37,546 nt of DNA, taken from a virus. The notes beneath the pieces were generated by a model. That model was not told the origin of the DNA. It saw only the letters and a list, made by a program, of their open reading frames with translations, and ran no database searches. Where the stretch lies: positions 1-37,546 of the IMG/VR virus record IMGVR_UViG_3300006641_000075, one strand, 5' to 3'. The position numbers and the translations under genes are program-made. Below, piece by piece: positions 1 through 37,546 of this stretch. Each line of letters starts with the position of its first letter. Position 1 is the first letter of the stretch.

Positions 1-16
1 TGAAAGGAGAGAAGGG

Positions 17-523
17 ATGATCTTCTGGGTCGACTTTGAGACAGCCAGCGAGTGCGATCTGCCGGAGAATAAGATGGTGAAAGCTATAGATGATAGATAT
101 TCTGTTACGTCAGATGGCCGTGTGTTCGATCATAAAAGATCGCGCTGGCTAAAAATATCGCGCACAAAAAGCGGTCACTGCACAGTAAAATTGCGCCGCA
201 AGACAAACTACGTCCACACTTTAGTTTTGCGCGCTTTTGCGCCGCCGCCTAATATACTTGGCCGCGTTGAATGTCGTCACTTAAACGGCGTTGCTTCTGA
301 TAACAGAATAGAAAATTTACGGTGGGGCACCGTGAAAGAAAATCGAGCGGATAGACGTGTCTTACACGAAACAGGCGCGTTCTCTTTTGAGGAAGCACAA
401 AACATAAAGCGGTCACTTAAAATAGGTGAATCCGTATGTGATCTAGCACGTAAATATGATGTCGACAGGCACACTATATCAAACATAAAATCAGGGAAAA
501 CCTATGCTCATATTTTGGTGTGA
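17..523 (+). CDS. HNH homing endonuclease fused to the original N-terminus of the DNA polymerase
   Basis: A 168-residue protein. Residues 1-15 copy the exonuclease I motif of a family A polymerase (IFWVDFETASECDL) and match the start of the next gene in protein but hardly in codons. From about residue 20 it is an HNH endonuclease: a NUMOD4-like N-terminal part, an HNH core around residues 66-110 (VHTLVLRAF, then RHLNG, then DNRIENLRW), and a C-terminal helix-turn-helix of NUMOD type near residues 124-160. It uses the strong ribosome-binding site (aaggagagaaggg) that must once have served the polymerase. The body is AT-richer than the neighbouring polymerase sequence, which suggests transfer. 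An internal start at residue 20 (nt 74) is possible. The 3' end overlaps the new polymerase start by 20 nt. It probably nicks or cuts polymerase genes lacking the insert; this role is inferred from the family. Confidence 0.85.
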   Translation: MIFWVDFETASECDLPENKMVKAIDDRYSVTSDGRVFDHKRSRWLKISRTKSGHCTVKLRRKTNYVHTLVLRAFAPPPNILGRVECRHLNGVASDNRIENLRWGTVKENRADRRVLHETGAFSFEEAQNIKRSLKIGESVCDLARKYDVDRHTISNIKSGKTYAHILV

Positions 524-2429
524 TTTTGAATCAAAGTCGGAATGCGACTTGAAAACAGAAGGAGTCTACAATTATTCACGTCATCCGTCGACGCAAGTCT
601 TGTGCATGTCCTACGCTTACGACGACGAGCCTGTCCGCACATGGCGGCCCGGCGAGCCCATGCCGAAGATCGAGGGGCAGATACGCGCGCATAACGCCGC
701 GTTCGAGCGTCTGATCTTCTGGCATGTGCTGAAGATGCCTATCCCACTGGAACAGTTCTACTGCACGGCGGCGCAAGCCCGCGCCAACTGCGCGCCTGGG
801 AGCCTAGAAGATGTTGGACGCTTTGCTGGAACGAGTATGCGCAAGGATCATCGTGGCGCTGCTCTTGTGCGGGCTTGCTGTATCCCGCCTTATAAAGACG
901 ATCTCATCCCCGAACTGATCCAGTATTGCGAGCAGGACGTGCGAACCATGCGCGCTGTCAGTCAGTCCATGCGCGAACTGACGCCGGAGGAACTGGAGGA
1001 CTACCACGTCAACGAACGGATCAACGACCGCGGCGTCATGGTCGACGTGGCGCTCTGTAAAGCTGCGGTCAAATACGCCGCCGCCGAACTGGCCGAGATC
1101 GAGGAGACGGTGCGGACCATCACAAGGGGCGAAATCCTGTCCGTGCGCAGCCCCAGGATGCGGTTGTGGGTGATGGACCGCGTTGGCCCCGAGGCGTTGA
1201 AGCTGATGGAACGGGCGGATAAGTTCTCCATCGACAAGACCGTTCGCGCGAATCTCTTGGCCATTGACGATCCAGAACAGGTGCCCCCCGATGTTAAAGA
1301 AGTTATTCAGTGCGCTGACGATCTTTGGGCTTCTTCTGTCGCTAAGTTTGAGCGTCTTGCTGGCCTCGCTAGTCTGGATGGACGTGTTAGAGGCGCTTTC
1401 GTTTTCGCCGGAGGGTCCGCGACCGGACGCGCCTCCTCTTATGGCGCTCAATTGCACAACGCCCCGCGTAGATGCGCCGAAGACCCTGAAGCCGTGCGAA
1501 CCGCGATGGTTCGGGGCCATAGAATTGTCCCTGAATTTGGTCGCCGCGTTACAGATGTTCTAAAAGGAATGTTGCGCCCGGCGATCATGCCCGCGCGGGG
1601 CCACGTATTTGTAGGTTATGATTGGAGCGCTATAGAAGGCCGCGTCAATCCTTGGCTGGCTGATACAGCGACCAGCGAAGATAAGCTCCAATGTTTCAGG
1701 GATGGTCTTGACCCCTATATTGTGAATGCGGCGGCGACATTTAACCGTGCGTATGCCGACATAGAGCGCGAATACAAAGAAACCAATAAATCCGAACAGC
1801 GCCAAGTAGGGAAAGTCCAAGAATTGGCACTTTCATTCGCCGGGGGTGCCGGCGCGTTTAATGCGATGGCCCGTATTTACGGCGTTCGGCTGTCAGACGC
1901 CGAGGTTAAGCGCGCCATAAATGGCTGGCGTAGCGCAAACCCATGGGCCGCCATTTTCTGGTCTGACCTTGAGACGGCATACACGCGGGCGCTACGGAAC
2001 CGCGGGAAAATATTTACCGCCGGCCGCGTTTCCTACTATTACGACGGCCAGCACCTTTGGTATGCTCTGCCTTCTGGCCGCGTGCTTTGCTATCCTTTTG
2101 CCCGGTTCGAAGATGACGGGATTACCTATTCCAAAGCGTCATGGAAGCCTGCGGCCGACGCCAAAGAGTGGCCCCGCGCGCGTCTCTGGAAAGGAATCGC
2201 GGTAGAAAATGTCACGCAAGCGACGGCGCACGATCTTTTGAGGGAAGCATTGCGCAAGATTCCAAACGTCGTAGCGCACATACACGATGAAATTCTCGTA
2301 GAGTGCGCGGAGGAAGACGCTGATAAAATGCTGTCGCACATGAAAGAAGTCATGACGACACCGCCTGCATGGGGTGAAGGGCTCCCACTTGCTGTTAGTG
2401 GCAAAGTTATGATACGGTTCGGTAAATAA
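504..2429 (+). CDS. Family A DNA polymerase with 3'-5' exonuclease domain
   Basis: Phage replicative DNA polymerase, 641 residues, of the type common in podoviruses. The exonuclease motifs are visible: Exo I D7-x-E9, Exo II around N64-F67-E68 and Exo III Y141-xxx-D145. Polymerase motif A is YDWSAIEGR with the catalytic Asp at 373, motif B is the K-x2-LALSFAGGAGAF stretch, and motif C is HDE with Asp 595. All catalytic residues seem intact. The start at 504 lies inside the end of the preceding HNH gene, and the first roughly 25 codons are AT-rich and recoded compared with the rest, so this 5' end appears to have arrived with the HNH insert. The ribosome-binding site (agggaaaa) is weak, so translation may be coupled to the HNH gene. 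Confidence 0.95.
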   Translation: MLIFWCDFESKSECDLKTEGVYNYSRHPSTQVLCMSYAYDDEPVRTWRPGEPMPKIEGQIRAHNAAFERLIFWHVLKMPIPLEQFYCTAAQARANCAPGSLEDVGRFAGTSMRKDHRGAALVRACCIPPYKDDLIPELIQYCEQDVRTMRAVSQSMRELTPEELEDYHVNERINDRGVMVDVALCKAAVKYAAAELAEIEETVRTITRGEILSVRSPRMRLWVMDRVGPEALKLMERADKFSIDKTVRANLLAIDDPEQVPPDVKEVIQCADDLWASSVAKFERLAGLASLDGRVRGAFVFAGGSATGRASSYGAQLHNAPRRCAEDPEAVRTAMVRGHRIVPEFGRRVTDVLKGMLRPAIMPARGHVFVGYDWSAIEGRVNPWLADTATSEDKLQCFRDGLDPYIVNAAATFNRAYADIEREYKETNKSEQRQVGKVQELALSFAGGAGAFNAMARIYGVRLSDAEVKRAINGWRSANPWAAIFWSDLETAYTRALRNRGKIFTAGRVSYYYDGQHLWYALPSGRVLCYPFARFEDDGITYSKASWKPAADAKEWPRARLWKGIAVENVTQATAHDLLREALRKIPNVVAHIHDEILVECAEEDADKMLSHMKEVMTTPPAWGEGLPLAVSGKVMIRFGK

Positions 2430-2447
2430 CTTTGCCGGGAGGCGTTT

Positions 2448-2930
2448 ATGCTAAGCCAAACACGATTAAAAGAGCTATTGACCTATGACAAGGATACGGG
2501 CGTTTTTACGTGGCGGCGTAGACGCGGTGGTAAAGCGGCGGTCGGCCGTTCTGCCGGGGCCAGAGATTCTTATGGCTATGTTGTTATTCGTCTGGACGGT
2601 GTGCTTTATAAAGCGCATCGTTTGGCGTGGTTTTATTCGCATGGTGCTTGGCCAGAAGAAAACATAGACCACATAAACCGCAATAAAAGCGACAACAGAT
2701 TAAAAAACCTACGCCTCGCCGGCCAGTCGCTTAACATGCACAACGCCAACCGAATCGCGGGGCAAAGCGGCGTTGTAGGCGTCACATGGGACTCACGACG
2801 GCGTAAATGGTGCGCGCGCATAAAAATAGCTTACGTCAGCAAGTTCCTAGGCCGTTTTGACACCAAAAACGCGGCCATAAAGGCCCGCGAAGACGCCGTT
2901 AAAAACATAGTATCTGTTTTGGGGGGCTGA
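2448..2930 (+). CDS. HNH homing endonuclease with AP2-like DNA-binding domain
   Basis: A 160-residue free-standing HNH endonuclease. An N-terminal domain of about 50 residues precedes the HNH core (HRLAWFYSHG at residue 57, then IDHINRNKSDN with D74-H75, then NLRL). The C-terminal third (about 105-150, GVTWDSRRRKWCARI and LGRFDT) resembles the AP2 DNA-binding fold typical of phage HNH genes. It sits between the polymerase and the primase-helicase with 18-nt and 2-nt gaps, so it has inserted into the replication operon without breaking a gene. The ribosome-binding site gggagg precedes the ATG. Its likely role is to spread itself into related phages lacking the insert. Confidence 0.9.
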   Translation: MLSQTRLKELLTYDKDTGVFTWRRRRGGKAAVGRSAGARDSYGYVVIRLDGVLYKAHRLAWFYSHGAWPEENIDHINRNKSDNRLKNLRLAGQSLNMHNANRIAGQSGVVGVTWDSRRRKWCARIKIAYVSKFLGRFDTKNAAIKAREDAVKNIVSVLGG

Positions 2931-2932
2931 TA

Positions 2933-5227
2933 ATGTTTGAATATTTTACTGCGCTTGCGCCGAAAGGCGAGACGGCGCTGATCGTCAAGCAGATCGACAC
3001 GGGCAGGCTGCACAAGGACGGCTCTCCCAAATACACTTGGCCGGCGTTCCTGCCGACGCATCGGCGCAAGGAAGGCGAGAGTTGGTTCCTGAACACGGGC
3101 AGTTTTATCTGCGACCGGCTCGACCTGAAGCGCCCTAGCGCCAGCGTCGCCAACTGCACGCATGTCCTATTCATGATGCTGGACGACATCGGCACGAAAT
3201 CCAAGACGCCTCCGCTGCCGCCGACGGCCATCGTTGAGACAAGCCCCGGCAACTATCAGTATTGGTATGCCTACAGCGAACAGCCGACGGCTGAAGAGCA
3301 TTGCGCCGCGCTGGAGGCTATCGCAGCCGCCGGCTACACGGACCCTGGCGCGACCAACGCCGTGCGTAACTGCCGTCTTCCGGGGTCCGTAAACGTCAAG
3401 CCCGGCCGCGACGCCTTCGTGTGCCGCGAGGTGGAGTTCCACCCCGAGCGCGAATACACGCTTGCCGAGATATGCGCAGCGCTCGAGGTGACGCCATGCG
3501 AAGTCGGTAACGCGCAGCGTATTACGTTCCGCGTAAAAGACACTGGCAACGATAAAGTTCTCGCTTGGCTGAACGAGCATGGGCTTGTTACGTCTAACGT
3601 AAACGCCGAAGGCTGGTGCGGTGTTGTCTGCCCGAACCATGAACATCATTCAGACGGACAGATCGAGGCTCGCTACCGCCCGCTCGACCGTTCGTTCTGT
3701 TGCTATCACGCGCACTGTGACGAACTGGATAGCCGGTTCTTCTGCGACTGGGTTGCGGACCAGGGCGGCCCGCGCGCCATGCCGGGACTGCGCGATGACC
3801 TGATCGCCGACTACACGGACAAAATCAACAAACTGACGCCGACCAAGAGCTTCCCCGACGAGGCGGCGGCGCGGGTCGCCGAGACTGAGGCCAAGCAGGC
3901 CGGCCGCGAGGACCGCGCACGCTGGCATGAGCGCTTTGCCTATATCGTGGACGATGACGCTTACTTCGACAAGGACACTTGCAGCGAGATCAGCCGCCGG
4001 GCCTTCAACGCCATCTTCCGGCATGTCGAATGCACGTCGGTCGGCCCCGCCGGCAAGCCACGCCGCGTCGAGGCGTCCCTGTGGTTTGACGAGCATCGCG
4101 AGGCGAGGCGCGCTTACGCCCTGAAGGGCCTGACCTACGCCGCCGGCGAGTCATGGCTGGTCCACAAGGACGGGCTTGTCTATGGCAACCTCTGGCGCGA
4201 CGCGCGGCCCAAGGTTACGGGTGGCGGCGACGTGACGCCCTGGCTCGACCACTGCCGCCGGCTGGTGCCGGAGGCCGCGGAGTTGGAGCATATCCTCGAC
4301 GTTATGGCGTTCAAGGTCCAGAACCCGCGCGTCAAGATCAACCATGCCGTCCTGCACGGCGGCAAGGGCGGCTGCGGCAAAGACACTATGTGGGCTCCGT
4401 TTATATGGTCCGTGTGCGGCCCGCATGAGAAGAACAAGGGTCTTATCGACAACGATAGCCTGTCAAGCCAGTGGGGTTACCAGCTAGAGGCCGAGATCGT
4501 CGTCCTGAACGAACTGAAGGAGCCCAACGCCGCCGACCGGCGCGTGCTGGCGAATCGTCTCAAGCCGATCATCGCCGCCCCGCCCGAGATGTTATCGATC
4601 AACCGCAAGGGCTTGCACCCCTACGACATGGTGAATCGGATTTTCATGCTGGCGTTCACGAACGAGGACATGCCGATCACGCTCGACTCCGACGACCGGC
4701 GCTGGTTCTGCGTCTGGTCCGACGCCCCCAAAATGACCTATGACGCCGCGGCGGCGCTGTGGGGCTGGTATAAGGCCGGCGGGTTCAAGGCCGTCGCCGG
4801 GTGGTTGCACGCTCGCGACGTGTCAAAGTTCGGCCCCCAGGCCATGCCACCCATGACCGAGTATAAGCAGAAGCTTATTTACGTCGGCATGAGCAGCGCT
4901 GAAGGTTACGTCTACCACGAAATCGAGGCCGGTCGCGCCCCGTTCAATGCCGACGTTATCGCCGGCCCTTGGCATACGCTTTGTAAGACGTTAACCGAGG
5001 CCACGAACAATTCGGTTCGCGTTGTCCAGCCGGCGCTATTTCACGCGCTAAAAGAGGCTGGATGGATCGACAAGGGGCTCTGCCATGCGACCGACTTCCC
5101 CTCAAAGAAACATTGCTTCGTGCGCCCCGCGCTCCGACACTGGTCGCGGTCTGACGTGCGGCGCGAGCTGGCGCGAATCTCGGGTGAAGGTCGGGAGGCC
5201 CCTAATGTCGTTCCCCTCAAAGGTTGA
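2933..5227 (+). CDS. Primase-helicase (RepB-like primase domain plus SF3-type helicase)
   Basis: A 764-residue replication protein. The N-terminal part (to about residue 280) resembles archaeo-eukaryotic-type primase/RepB-like domains, with ETSPGNYQYWY and a downstream Cys/His-containing stretch (CPNHEHHSDGQ, CCYHAHCDE) that may bind zinc. The C-terminal part is a superfamily 3-like helicase of the DUF5906 kind: Walker A GGKGGCGKDT at residues 476-485, a Walker B-like EIVVLNELKE, and a sensor Asn in IFMLAFTNED. It would prime and unwind DNA for the polymerase two genes upstream. It follows the HNH gene by 2 nt and overlaps the next gene by 23 nt. The primase assignment is less sure than the helicase. 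Confidence 0.88.
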   Translation: MFEYFTALAPKGETALIVKQIDTGRLHKDGSPKYTWPAFLPTHRRKEGESWFLNTGSFICDRLDLKRPSASVANCTHVLFMMLDDIGTKSKTPPLPPTAIVETSPGNYQYWYAYSEQPTAEEHCAALEAIAAAGYTDPGATNAVRNCRLPGSVNVKPGRDAFVCREVEFHPEREYTLAEICAALEVTPCEVGNAQRITFRVKDTGNDKVLAWLNEHGLVTSNVNAEGWCGVVCPNHEHHSDGQIEARYRPLDRSFCCYHAHCDELDSRFFCDWVADQGGPRAMPGLRDDLIADYTDKINKLTPTKSFPDEAAARVAETEAKQAGREDRARWHERFAYIVDDDAYFDKDTCSEISRRAFNAIFRHVECTSVGPAGKPRRVEASLWFDEHREARRAYALKGLTYAAGESWLVHKDGLVYGNLWRDARPKVTGGGDVTPWLDHCRRLVPEAAELEHILDVMAFKVQNPRVKINHAVLHGGKGGCGKDTMWAPFIWSVCGPHEKNKGLIDNDSLSSQWGYQLEAEIVVLNELKEPNAADRRVLANRLKPIIAAPPEMLSINRKGLHPYDMVNRIFMLAFTNEDMPITLDSDDRRWFCVWSDAPKMTYDAAAALWGWYKAGGFKAVAGWLHARDVSKFGPQAMPPMTEYKQKLIYVGMSSAEGYVYHEIEAGRAPFNADVIAGPWHTLCKTLTEATNNSVRVVQPALFHALKEAGWIDKGLCHATDFPSKKHCFVRPALRHWSRSDVRRELARISGEGREAPNVVPLKG

Positions 5228-20641: not shown

Positions 20642-21178
20642 CTATGTTTTAAAATATTTGCCTCTATAAGACCCTGCCCGGCCTTTGGGCTGCCGACTGT
20701 TAGGGTCTTGCCGGTAAATATTGAGCGCATGTTGCACGTTTTCACGATGCGTCAACAACTCTAGGTTTTCTAGCCGGTTATCGTCTCGTATGAGATTTAT
20801 GTGGTTCACCTCTAATCTGTCAGGGATCGGCCCATTAAACGCTTCCCATACTGCTCTATGGATTCGGTAGTGCTTATACTGCCCATCTTTGCACGGCCTA
20901 AATATGCGGTATTCATGTTTATCCGGCGTCGTTCGCATTGGCCGATAAGTAACGTCGCCCGCCCATGTCTTCCCGTGTTTGATGGCCATAACGGTTGTAA
21001 CACTGGTGTTCAGAAACGCCGCGACATCTTTCAGTTTAGCGCCGTCTGCCAATCGTTTTTTAGCTTCTGCTACTTGTTCCGCCGTAAACAATTTGCCGCG
21101 CGCTACTCGACGCACGTTACCAAAATTGCTAATCTCATAAAGTCCTTCATATCCAAGGACTGCGCGCCACTCTTCCAT
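20642..21178 (-). CDS. NUMOD4-HNH homing endonuclease
   Basis: A 178-residue protein on the strand opposite to the surrounding late genes. Order: NUMOD4 motif (EEWRAVLGYEGLYEISNFGNVRRV, residues 2-25), a helix-turn-helix (FTAEQVAEAKKRLADGAKLK then DVAAFLNTSVTTVMAIKHGKTW), and an HNH_3 domain (HRAVWEAFNGPIPDRLEVNHINLIRDDNRLENLE). Its stop abuts the gp4-like stop. It is AT-richer than its neighbours, which suggests transfer. It would spread into phages lacking the insert between gp4 and gp10. Confidence 0.9.
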   Translation of the reverse strand: MEEWRAVLGYEGLYEISNFGNVRRVARGKLFTAEQVAEAKKRLADGAKLKDVAAFLNTSVTTVMAIKHGKTWAGDVTYRPMRTTPDKHEYRIFRPCKDGQYKHYRIHRAVWEAFNGPIPDRLEVNHINLIRDDNRLENLELLTHRENVQHALNIYRQDPNSRQPKGRAGSYRGKYFKT

Positions 21179-33165: not shown

Positions 33166-33634
33166 GGCGCGCAAATTCCCCATGATATTTATCGTGCTGT
33201 TCAGAGGCGACAAATTTGGCTAAGTCTAGGTCGTCAAAAAATCCTATGTGTTGCTGTTTACTGTGTGGCCGGCTTACAATAACGCGCCATTTAGCAGCTT
33301 TCTTATCCCACCGGACATTTTTAGCCCCGCTTATATTATCGCGCCTGACTTTACGATTATGCTGATTTTGTTCTCGCGTTGCAGCGCGTAAATTTTCAAT
33401 TTTGTTGTTAGTTTTATCGCCGTCAATGTGGTCAACAAACGTCGGTGTATGACCGTGAAACATGAGGTAAATCAGTCTGTGGGCCTGATATTTTTTACCG
33501 TTTATGTTGACGCGCCAATAACCAGTATTGGCAAGCCCGCCGGCAAGCGGCTTGTGACCTTTGCGAGTCTGTCGGTATATTAACTGTCCGTCTTCATACG
33601 CAAAAAGATCAATGACTTGTTGTTGAGTCAACAT
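33158..33634 (-). CDS. HNH homing endonuclease with AP2-like domain
   Basis: A 158-residue HNH protein at the head of the leftward helicase-nuclease operon. HNH core: HRLIYLMFHGHTP (H52), FVDHIDGDKTNNKIENL (D68-H69, N77). The C-terminal half (GAKNVRWDKKAAKWRVIVSR then IGFFDD) resembles the AP2 DNA-binding domain, the same architecture as the gene at 2448-2930 though clearly diverged. AT-richer than its neighbours. ggagc precedes the ATG. Confidence 0.9.
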   Translation of the reverse strand: MLTQQQVIDLFAYEDGQLIYRQTRKGHKPLAGGLANTGYWRVNINGKKYQAHRLIYLMFHGHTPTFVDHIDGDKTNNKIENLRAATREQNQHNRKVRRDNISGAKNVRWDKKAAKWRVIVSRPHSKQQHIGFFDDLDLAKFVASEQHDKYHGEFARHE

Positions 33635-37083: not shown

Positions 37084-37444
37084 AGAAGAACGCGAGAAGC
37101 TCATTGAGGACATGGCGCGTGCAATTCATGCGACAGAGTGGGACGCGGACCATTATGAGTTTTCAGATCAACCGCTACATATTCAGAACGAGTATCGGAC
37201 GGAAGCCCGCGCCGCTCTCGTCATTGCAGAAGAAGCAATCAGCAAGGATTACCGCGCCCGCATCGCGGAACTGGAGGCGGTGCTGAAAGACGCTACCGTC
37301 AACCTTATCGCAGCCGTGTCGCTTCTTGAAAGCGGAGGCAAGAAAGGTGCGCCAAGTAATAAGATGTTTGAGCAGATGCTTGTTGATTACAAAAACGGCG
37401 TCGAGCGCGCCCGCGCCGCGCTGAATGGAGGCAGGGGTGAGTGA
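37076..37444 (+). CDS. Hypothetical coiled-coil protein
   Basis: A 122-residue charged helical protein (MTEEEREKLIEDMARAIHAT, ARIAELEAVLKDATVNLIAA). The first 20 residues resemble a motif frequent in phage accessory proteins. No function assigned. Overlaps both neighbours by 8 nt. Confidence 0.65.
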   Translation: MTEEEREKLIEDMARAIHATEWDADHYEFSDQPLHIQNEYRTEARAALVIAEEAISKDYRARIAELEAVLKDATVNLIAAVSLLESGGKKGAPSNKMFEQMLVDYKNGVERARAALNGGRGE

Positions 37445-37546
37445 CATTCGATTAGGATTGATGAACGCAGTCGCGGAGATTGAACAGCTTCGCATACAAC
37501 TCGCCGCCGCAGAAACCGAGCGTGACGAACTGCGCGCCGAACTCGC
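37437..37546 (+). CDS. Partial coiled-coil protein cut by the window end
   Basis: Begins at GTG 37437 behind ggaggcagg, overlapping the previous gene by 8 nt, and runs off the window. The visible part (SDIRLGLMNAVAEIEQLRIQ then LAAAETERDELRAEL) is a coiled coil like that of the protein at 36437. If the contig is circular, its continuation should lead to the DNA polymerase locus. Confidence 0.6.
   Translation, partial: MSDIRLGLMNAVAEIEQLRIQLAAAETERDELRAEL

Follow-up and report, generated by a model that had tools for sequence, protein, structure and literature searches.

An HNH gene fused to the start of a DNA polymerase

The stretch of DNA analysed here (the window) is a 37.5-kb virus record, and its first open reading frame, at 17-523 on the plus strand, encodes 168 amino acids that begin as one protein and continue as another. 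The first residues, MIFWVDFETASECDLPE, are a peptide of family-A phage DNA polymerases; 17 polymerase codons are fused to a NUMOD4 module, an HNH_3 catalytic domain (212-346, +; ORF residues 66-110, CRHLNG..SDNRIENLRWGT) and a helix-turn-helix tail. In Pfam, HNH_3 scores 32.6 bits against a cut-off of 24.8 and NUMOD4 25.8 bits against 23.4; HTH_38 reaches 21.8 bits, under its cut-off of 27. The product has both the catalytic domain of the homing-family HNH endonucleases and DNA-binding modules of the homing type (NUMOD, helix-turn-helix). An earlier note on this DNA had read the frame as opening with a polymerase motif and turning into an HNH endonuclease, and this is borne out by the Pfam matches and by the uninterrupted homologues described below.

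The polymerase-derived portion (17-67, +) consists of the original start and first 17 codons of the polymerase, with a ribosome-binding site at about 6-14 (GGAGAGAAG). Together with its upstream flank, as read in contig L002, it is 95% identical to the uninterrupted allele L089 over 234 nt, with the identity stopping exactly at codon 17, so that the resemblance to polymerase is not due to chance; the remnant is also matched by L009, L090 and L003. The earlier note had placed the break after codon 15. The native front end is indeed there, but the remnant extends over 17 codons, to position 67, since uninterrupted alleles also read ...CTGCCGGAG before they diverge. The claim that the HNH gene took over the original start and ribosome-binding site agrees with what the remnant retains. 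A probable second HNH start, ATG at 74, is preceded by GGAG at 64-67 with a spacing of 6 nt and would define a frame of 74-523 (+); relatives of this HNH gene in the four other lineages (L084, L098, L101 and L048) begin at an ATG of their own, and an upstream polymerase remnant is absent from them.

Two further observations concern the surroundings of this frame. A repeated gene boundary (CGCGCCGCGCTGAA[GT]GGAGAGAAG) is found ahead of several small genes and of the polymerase (window 1-20 and 37400-37546; L002:1900-2520; L009:2498-3000). Position 37440 of the window is joined to position 1 in L002, which points to a probably circular or permuted genome in which a variable small gene occupies the join. 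There are also two more HNH-like frames on the minus strand, at 20705-20923 and 33218-33634, with stretches 32-43% identical to the HNH genes at 17-523 and 2448-2930.

A complete polymerase with an AT-rich start

A complete ORF of the DNA_pol_A family (Pfam; 641 amino acids) follows at 504-2429 (+) and begins MLIFWCDFESKSECDLKT / MLIFWCDFESKSECDL. It overlaps the HNH ORF by 20 nt (504-523, +), with the polymerase start codon lying within the HNH C-terminal helix-turn-helix codons (GKTYA..). Its probable ribosome-binding site, AGGGA at 493-497 (+), is within HNH coding sequence, and a similarly spaced AGGA is present in L084. The ORF aligns over its full length with uninterrupted polymerases, rather than forming one of two functional parts of a split gene.

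The two polymerase starts, at 17 and at 504, share 11 of 16 residues and only 25 of 48 nucleotides. GC content (with GC3 in brackets) is 0.57 (0.82) in the remnant at 17-67, 0.44 (0.39) at 68-503, 0.39 (0.41) at 504-590 and 0.57 (0.62) at 591-2429; the first 87 nt of the polymerase rank second for AT-richness among 613 windows of the gene. The replacement for the polymerase 5' end, recoded and AT-rich, occupies 504-595 (+), its right edge falling at about 561 in comparison with L089 and at about 600 in comparison with L050. The earlier note had described a polymerase that restarts at 504 with nearly the same peptide in AT-rich codons up to about 595, and had suggested comparing codon use and GC across the segments; the figures above uphold that description.

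The rest of the polymerase is a mosaic: from about 600 to 1490 it is 74-95% like L050/L004, and the later part resembles L089/L003 (1728-1967 is 75% like L089 and only 42-57% like L050/L004). Among GenBank phages, the closest polymerase relative is only 59% identical, and the HNH matches are distant, with less than 40% identity among the matches listed.

Group I introns of phage polymerase genes frequently harbour HNH genes (PMC3428280; PMC6083498 cites DNA polymerase introns), and the HNH gene might likewise sit in an intron or other spliced element, the polymerase being restored once 68-503 or more had been spliced out of the RNA. This is very improbable. The ORF that opens at 504 encodes a whole polymerase and has a start and ribosome-binding site of its own; four relatives carry the upstream HNH gene with no 5' exon at all; and an Rfam search over 1-3000 at E <= 1 gave no group I or other intron, with one weak unrelated sRNA match only. 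We therefore rejected an intron or intein. The earlier note had itself named splicing of 63-503 as the outcome that would count against its reading; the region matches no catalogued intron, and the polymerase is complete unspliced.

Uninterrupted alleles and the direction of change

In seven relatives (L089, L009, L003, L087, L090, L091 and L093) the HNH gene is absent and the remnant codons (…CTGCCGGAG or close variants) run straight into GCGGGCGTNTAYAA…. Homology between L089 and the window stops at 67 and picks up at 561. The prediction that HNH-less homologues would pass directly from the codons at 17-67 to about 561 is thus borne out in L089, L009, L003, L090 and others, and an HNH-less homologue with an identical AT-rich 5' end, the finding that would have spoken against the earlier note, was not encountered, the nearest being L005/L024 and L008, which match at 77-80% across about 100 nt. 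Since the remnant is the start of the uninterrupted polymerase, the direction of change is gain of the HNH gene. The left flank is 95% like L089, and the right side is only 73% like L089 and becomes L050-like from about 600; the transferred tract is therefore unbounded on the right, and insertion and one-sided recombination are not separable in the window.

Two versions of one gene start side by side in a metagenomic contig are what an assembly artefact joining two phage strains could also produce. The same junctions, however, are found in L002 (99.98% over 5,426 nt) and L083 (100% over 4,015 nt), samples that may be related, and the join of HNH gene and polymerase recurs in four further lineages, which leaves an artefact highly unlikely.

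The same HNH family in five lineages

The HNH signature WGTVKENRADR was found in eight viral stretches that represent five lineages (window/L002/L083; L084; L098/L099; L101; L048/L102/L103), and had no match in the bacterial genome contigs scanned. In all eight stretches the gene lies directly 5' of the same polymerase and overlaps its start. The polymerase ATG is located in the last HNH codons, in the helix-turn-helix tail, in 5/5 lineages, with overlaps of 8-20 nt, which places the ribosome-binding region of the polymerase within the HNH gene.

A different HNH subfamily lies directly upstream of the polymerase in L025 (2542-3001), with an 8-nt overlap with its start; there the divergent polymerase tract is longer (to about nt 295) and AT-rich recoding is absent.

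Exchange of the HNH gene together with the polymerase 5' end

The presence or absence of the HNH gene at a single site can be seen in the window against L089 and others, and also in L103 (HNH-bearing) against L041 (HNH-less). In the latter pair the left flanks are 91% and the right flanks 94% identical, and 707 nt stand in L103 in place of 76 nt in L041, the replaced segment beginning about 13 nt ahead of the L041 polymerase start and ending at polymerase nt 65. L048, which carries the L103 allele, has a polymerase body 94% identical to that of L041, whereas the first 24 codons from the DFE motif are only 60% identical; the share of identical synonymous codons falls from 85% in the body to 33% in the 5' end. 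L084 and L126 are 92.7% identical to the end of the HNH NUMOD4 part and 92% again from polymerase nt 64, the differing block being the HNH body plus about 20 polymerase codons. Both blocks have the form expected of co-transfer of flanking target-gene sequence. Pairs with other HNH types (L118/L120, L111/L136, L126/L131) have exchanged the HNH body along with about 245-275 nt of polymerase. All these pairs indicate that, at this locus, the HNH body is exchanged as one unit with the polymerase 5' end.

The comparison of L084 and L126 (about L084:3486-3563) also looks like domain swapping, with an identical NUMOD4 front and a catalytic and DNA-binding body that was swapped along with the polymerase 5' end.

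The left edge of the exchanged block varies: in L103 it lies upstream of the gene, in L084 it falls inside the HNH gene, and in the window it is within polymerase codon 17. Such variation is consistent with polymerase homology determining the right side and any homology that happened to be available, or none, determining the left. In the tree of polymerase bodies, the HNH label needs at least 3 changes on well-supported branches, with L048 placed next to L041, for example, and the window next to L089/L003.

Directly downstream of the polymerase lies a second HNH gene (2448-2930, +), with an HNH_3 domain and an AP2 domain under the Pfam cut-off. Close copies of it occur in L089 and L003 only (68-69%), and the last 33 polymerase codons are also closest in these two (0.80/0.76, against <=0.66 elsewhere), suggesting co-transfer of the polymerase 3' end too.

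Much of this could arise by passive mosaic recombination, in which the HNH-bearing polymerase of one lineage was joined to the 5' flank of another, the nuclease playing no active part and the recoding being mere divergence. The polymerase is strongly mosaic; the left-hand 234 nt and the right side differ in their likeness to L089 as noted above; and other HNH types exchange blocks here as well. Yet passive mosaicism does not predict that the replaced polymerase stretch should stop close to a shared set of codons (about nt 55-65) in four signature-HNH alleles, nor that three codons should change jointly and only in signature-HNH alleles, as detailed in the next section. We consider it an unlikely account, albeit the least unlikely of the alternatives.

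Recoding of the polymerase 5' end

We measured the AT shift of an allele by subtracting the GC of the polymerase body from that of the 66 nt starting at the DFE motif. It is about -0.17 to -0.28 in 5/5 alleles with the signature HNH gene, and -0.12 or higher in HNH-less alleles; in a permutation over 86 alleles (the unrelated HNH allele L025 counted as positive) the result was 0/200,000. The notion that AT-richness is a chance trait of gene starts was rejected, as about 80 HNH-less alleles do not go that far; the nearest, L005, L022 and L024, are at -0.12. Scans of up to 2.5 kb upstream in L005 and L022 gave no match to the signature HNH family.

The two groups also differ at a conserved site in the exonuclease region, GGC GTN TAY AAC TAC GCN, which encodes GVYNYA. 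HNH-less alleles have GGC in 69/80, AAC in 73/80 and TAC in 72/80; in alleles with the signature HNH gene each of these is found in 0/5. All three are lost in 5/5 of the latter and in 0/80 of the former (Fisher P about 1e-4 to 2e-5 per site, a value in which ancestry is not corrected for). The window reads GGA GTC TAC AAT TAT TCA, for GVYNYS, at 561-578 (+), the proposed former target. Codons beyond this site mostly have no such contrast, and among other HNH types at the locus the full codon change together with the AT shift was not seen; a strongly AT-rich polymerase end is absent from L025, L118, L137 and L138.

Protection of the HNH-bearing allele by recoding fits this loss of codons. The five alleles are not five independent recodings, as the HNH-bearing 5' ends may share ancestry via the cassette, and the AT-rich character could reflect ancestry or a translation requirement instead of resistance. 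If initiation is coupled, weak RNA structure might be selected around a polymerase start that lies inside the HNH ORF, as it does in 5/5 alleles, and the AT-rich zone does run on from the HNH gene into the polymerase. However, loci with other HNH types and a 4-nt overlap with the polymerase start (L118, L124, L137, L138) lack a strong AT shift, and selection on initiation alone would not favour changes of the GVYNYA codons, some 55-75 nt downstream. Such translational adaptation is in our estimate improbable, a shade more so than passive mosaicism.

A structured RNA near related loci

An RNA of about 100 nt precedes many of the related HNH-polymerase loci (L084:3366-3486; L098:3245-3367; L048:2362-2486; also L110-L138, L140-L189 and L196). 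It has two pseudoknots, in one of which the hairpin loop UUGGCG pairs with CGCCAA and in the other AAGGU with ACCUU, a long terminator stem, and a TATAAT-like -10 box upstream; it covaries strongly, with 41 double-change cells against 0/500 shuffles. With a relaxed pattern it was found in 82 viral stretches, before HNH/polymerase pairs and before other replication genes (DUF1376-like and RecT-like, named by eye). The L084, L048 and L098 members have no Rfam match, and this is possibly an undescribed phage RNA family. The RNA is absent from the window. It had been suspected of being part of the cassette, as it lies within the L103/L041 block and ahead of nearly every HNH gene in the loci with the RNA pattern; this was rejected, because it also stands before an HNH-less polymerase (L148) and before unrelated phage replication genes, and is thus not specific to the cassette.

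Comparison with known systems

The closest parallels are endonuclease ORFs with duplicated gene ends in fungal mitochondria (Allomyces atp6; Glomus atp6, atp9, cox2 and nad3; PMC3630166). There, as here, an endonuclease ORF stands beside a foreign end of a host gene, the native end is sometimes left as a remnant, and the copies diverge more in DNA than in protein. In the fungal elements, however, the 3' end is replaced and the endonuclease is LAGLIDADG or GIY-YIG; here it is the 5' end and a phage HNH, with the start codon inside the endonuclease gene. In its anatomy the locus is a 5' mirror of the fungal hybrids, as the earlier note had proposed for the Allomyces atp6 element. Mitochondrial introns of Tremella fuciformis with N-terminal host-gene duplications (PMC7315562), which have been proposed to swap gene fragments between species, likewise combine mobility with a replacement copy of host-gene sequence; these elements are introns, whereas at the present locus no intron was found and the replacement uses its own start for expression.

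Among phages, free-standing homing endonuclease genes (HEGs) of the T4 type (Seg, Mob; PMC2988022) and HEGs at exchange boundaries (PMC10448857) are likewise neighbours of an essential replication gene, vary in their presence at a single site, co-convert their flanks and show HEG domain swapping. Several T4 HEGs overlap the gene upstream of them (PMC2988022), whereas here the essential gene comes after the HEG and has its start within it, and a specific recoded 5' segment travels with the phage HNH gene. In Aeh1 nrdA/mobE and T4 gene 60/mobA a homing endonuclease gene is also inserted into an essential gene, but that gene is split into two working pieces (PMC2988022); here the polymerase is rebuilt whole, with a remnant in front. 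Synthetic Cleave-and-Rescue (PMC7951863) follows the same logic, in that a nuclease is directed against an essential gene and accompanied by a recoded, resistant rescue copy. It is an engineered gene drive, whereas the locus described here is natural, has a replacement of the 5' end only and would spread through homing. Our search of the open-access literature (subscription papers lay outside it) found no phage 5'-end version of such elements.

Proposed mechanism and implications

We conclude that the locus probably represents a free-standing HNH homing endonuclease gene joined to, and co-mobile with, a recoded polymerase 5' end; cutting, resistance and homing are deduced from the arrangement of the alleles. 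The remnant, the uninterrupted alleles, the block exchange in relatives and the allele-specific recoding all support it at the level of sequence. In a mixed infection, the HNH enzyme would cut polymerase alleles that lack the HNH gene, close to the conserved GVYNYA codons. Repair templated by the HNH-bearing genome would then copy the HNH gene and the altered, presumably resistant 5' end, restoring an intact polymerase. In the ancestor of the window the left join would have formed without obvious homology, inside recipient codon 17, which would have left the old start and 17 codons as the new front end of the HNH ORF.

More tentatively, and with rather less confidence, we put forward that the locus may be a natural cleave-and-rescue element: the HNH enzyme would destroy naive alleles, its own allele would be shielded by recoding, and, with the polymerase start and ribosome-binding site captured, loss of the nuclease gene would silence the polymerase.

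The prospective target, GGC GTN TAY AAC TAC in the polymerase exonuclease region, is a specific prediction, for which matched pairs of genomes with and without the HNH gene are at hand. If the proposal is true, a selfish nuclease is able to invade an essential gene and leave it intact, by supplying a start for that gene and a spelling that its own enzyme should spare; its capture of the polymerase start and ribosome-binding site would make the selfish gene hard to lose; and the locus would be a natural counterpart to engineered cleave-and-rescue drives.
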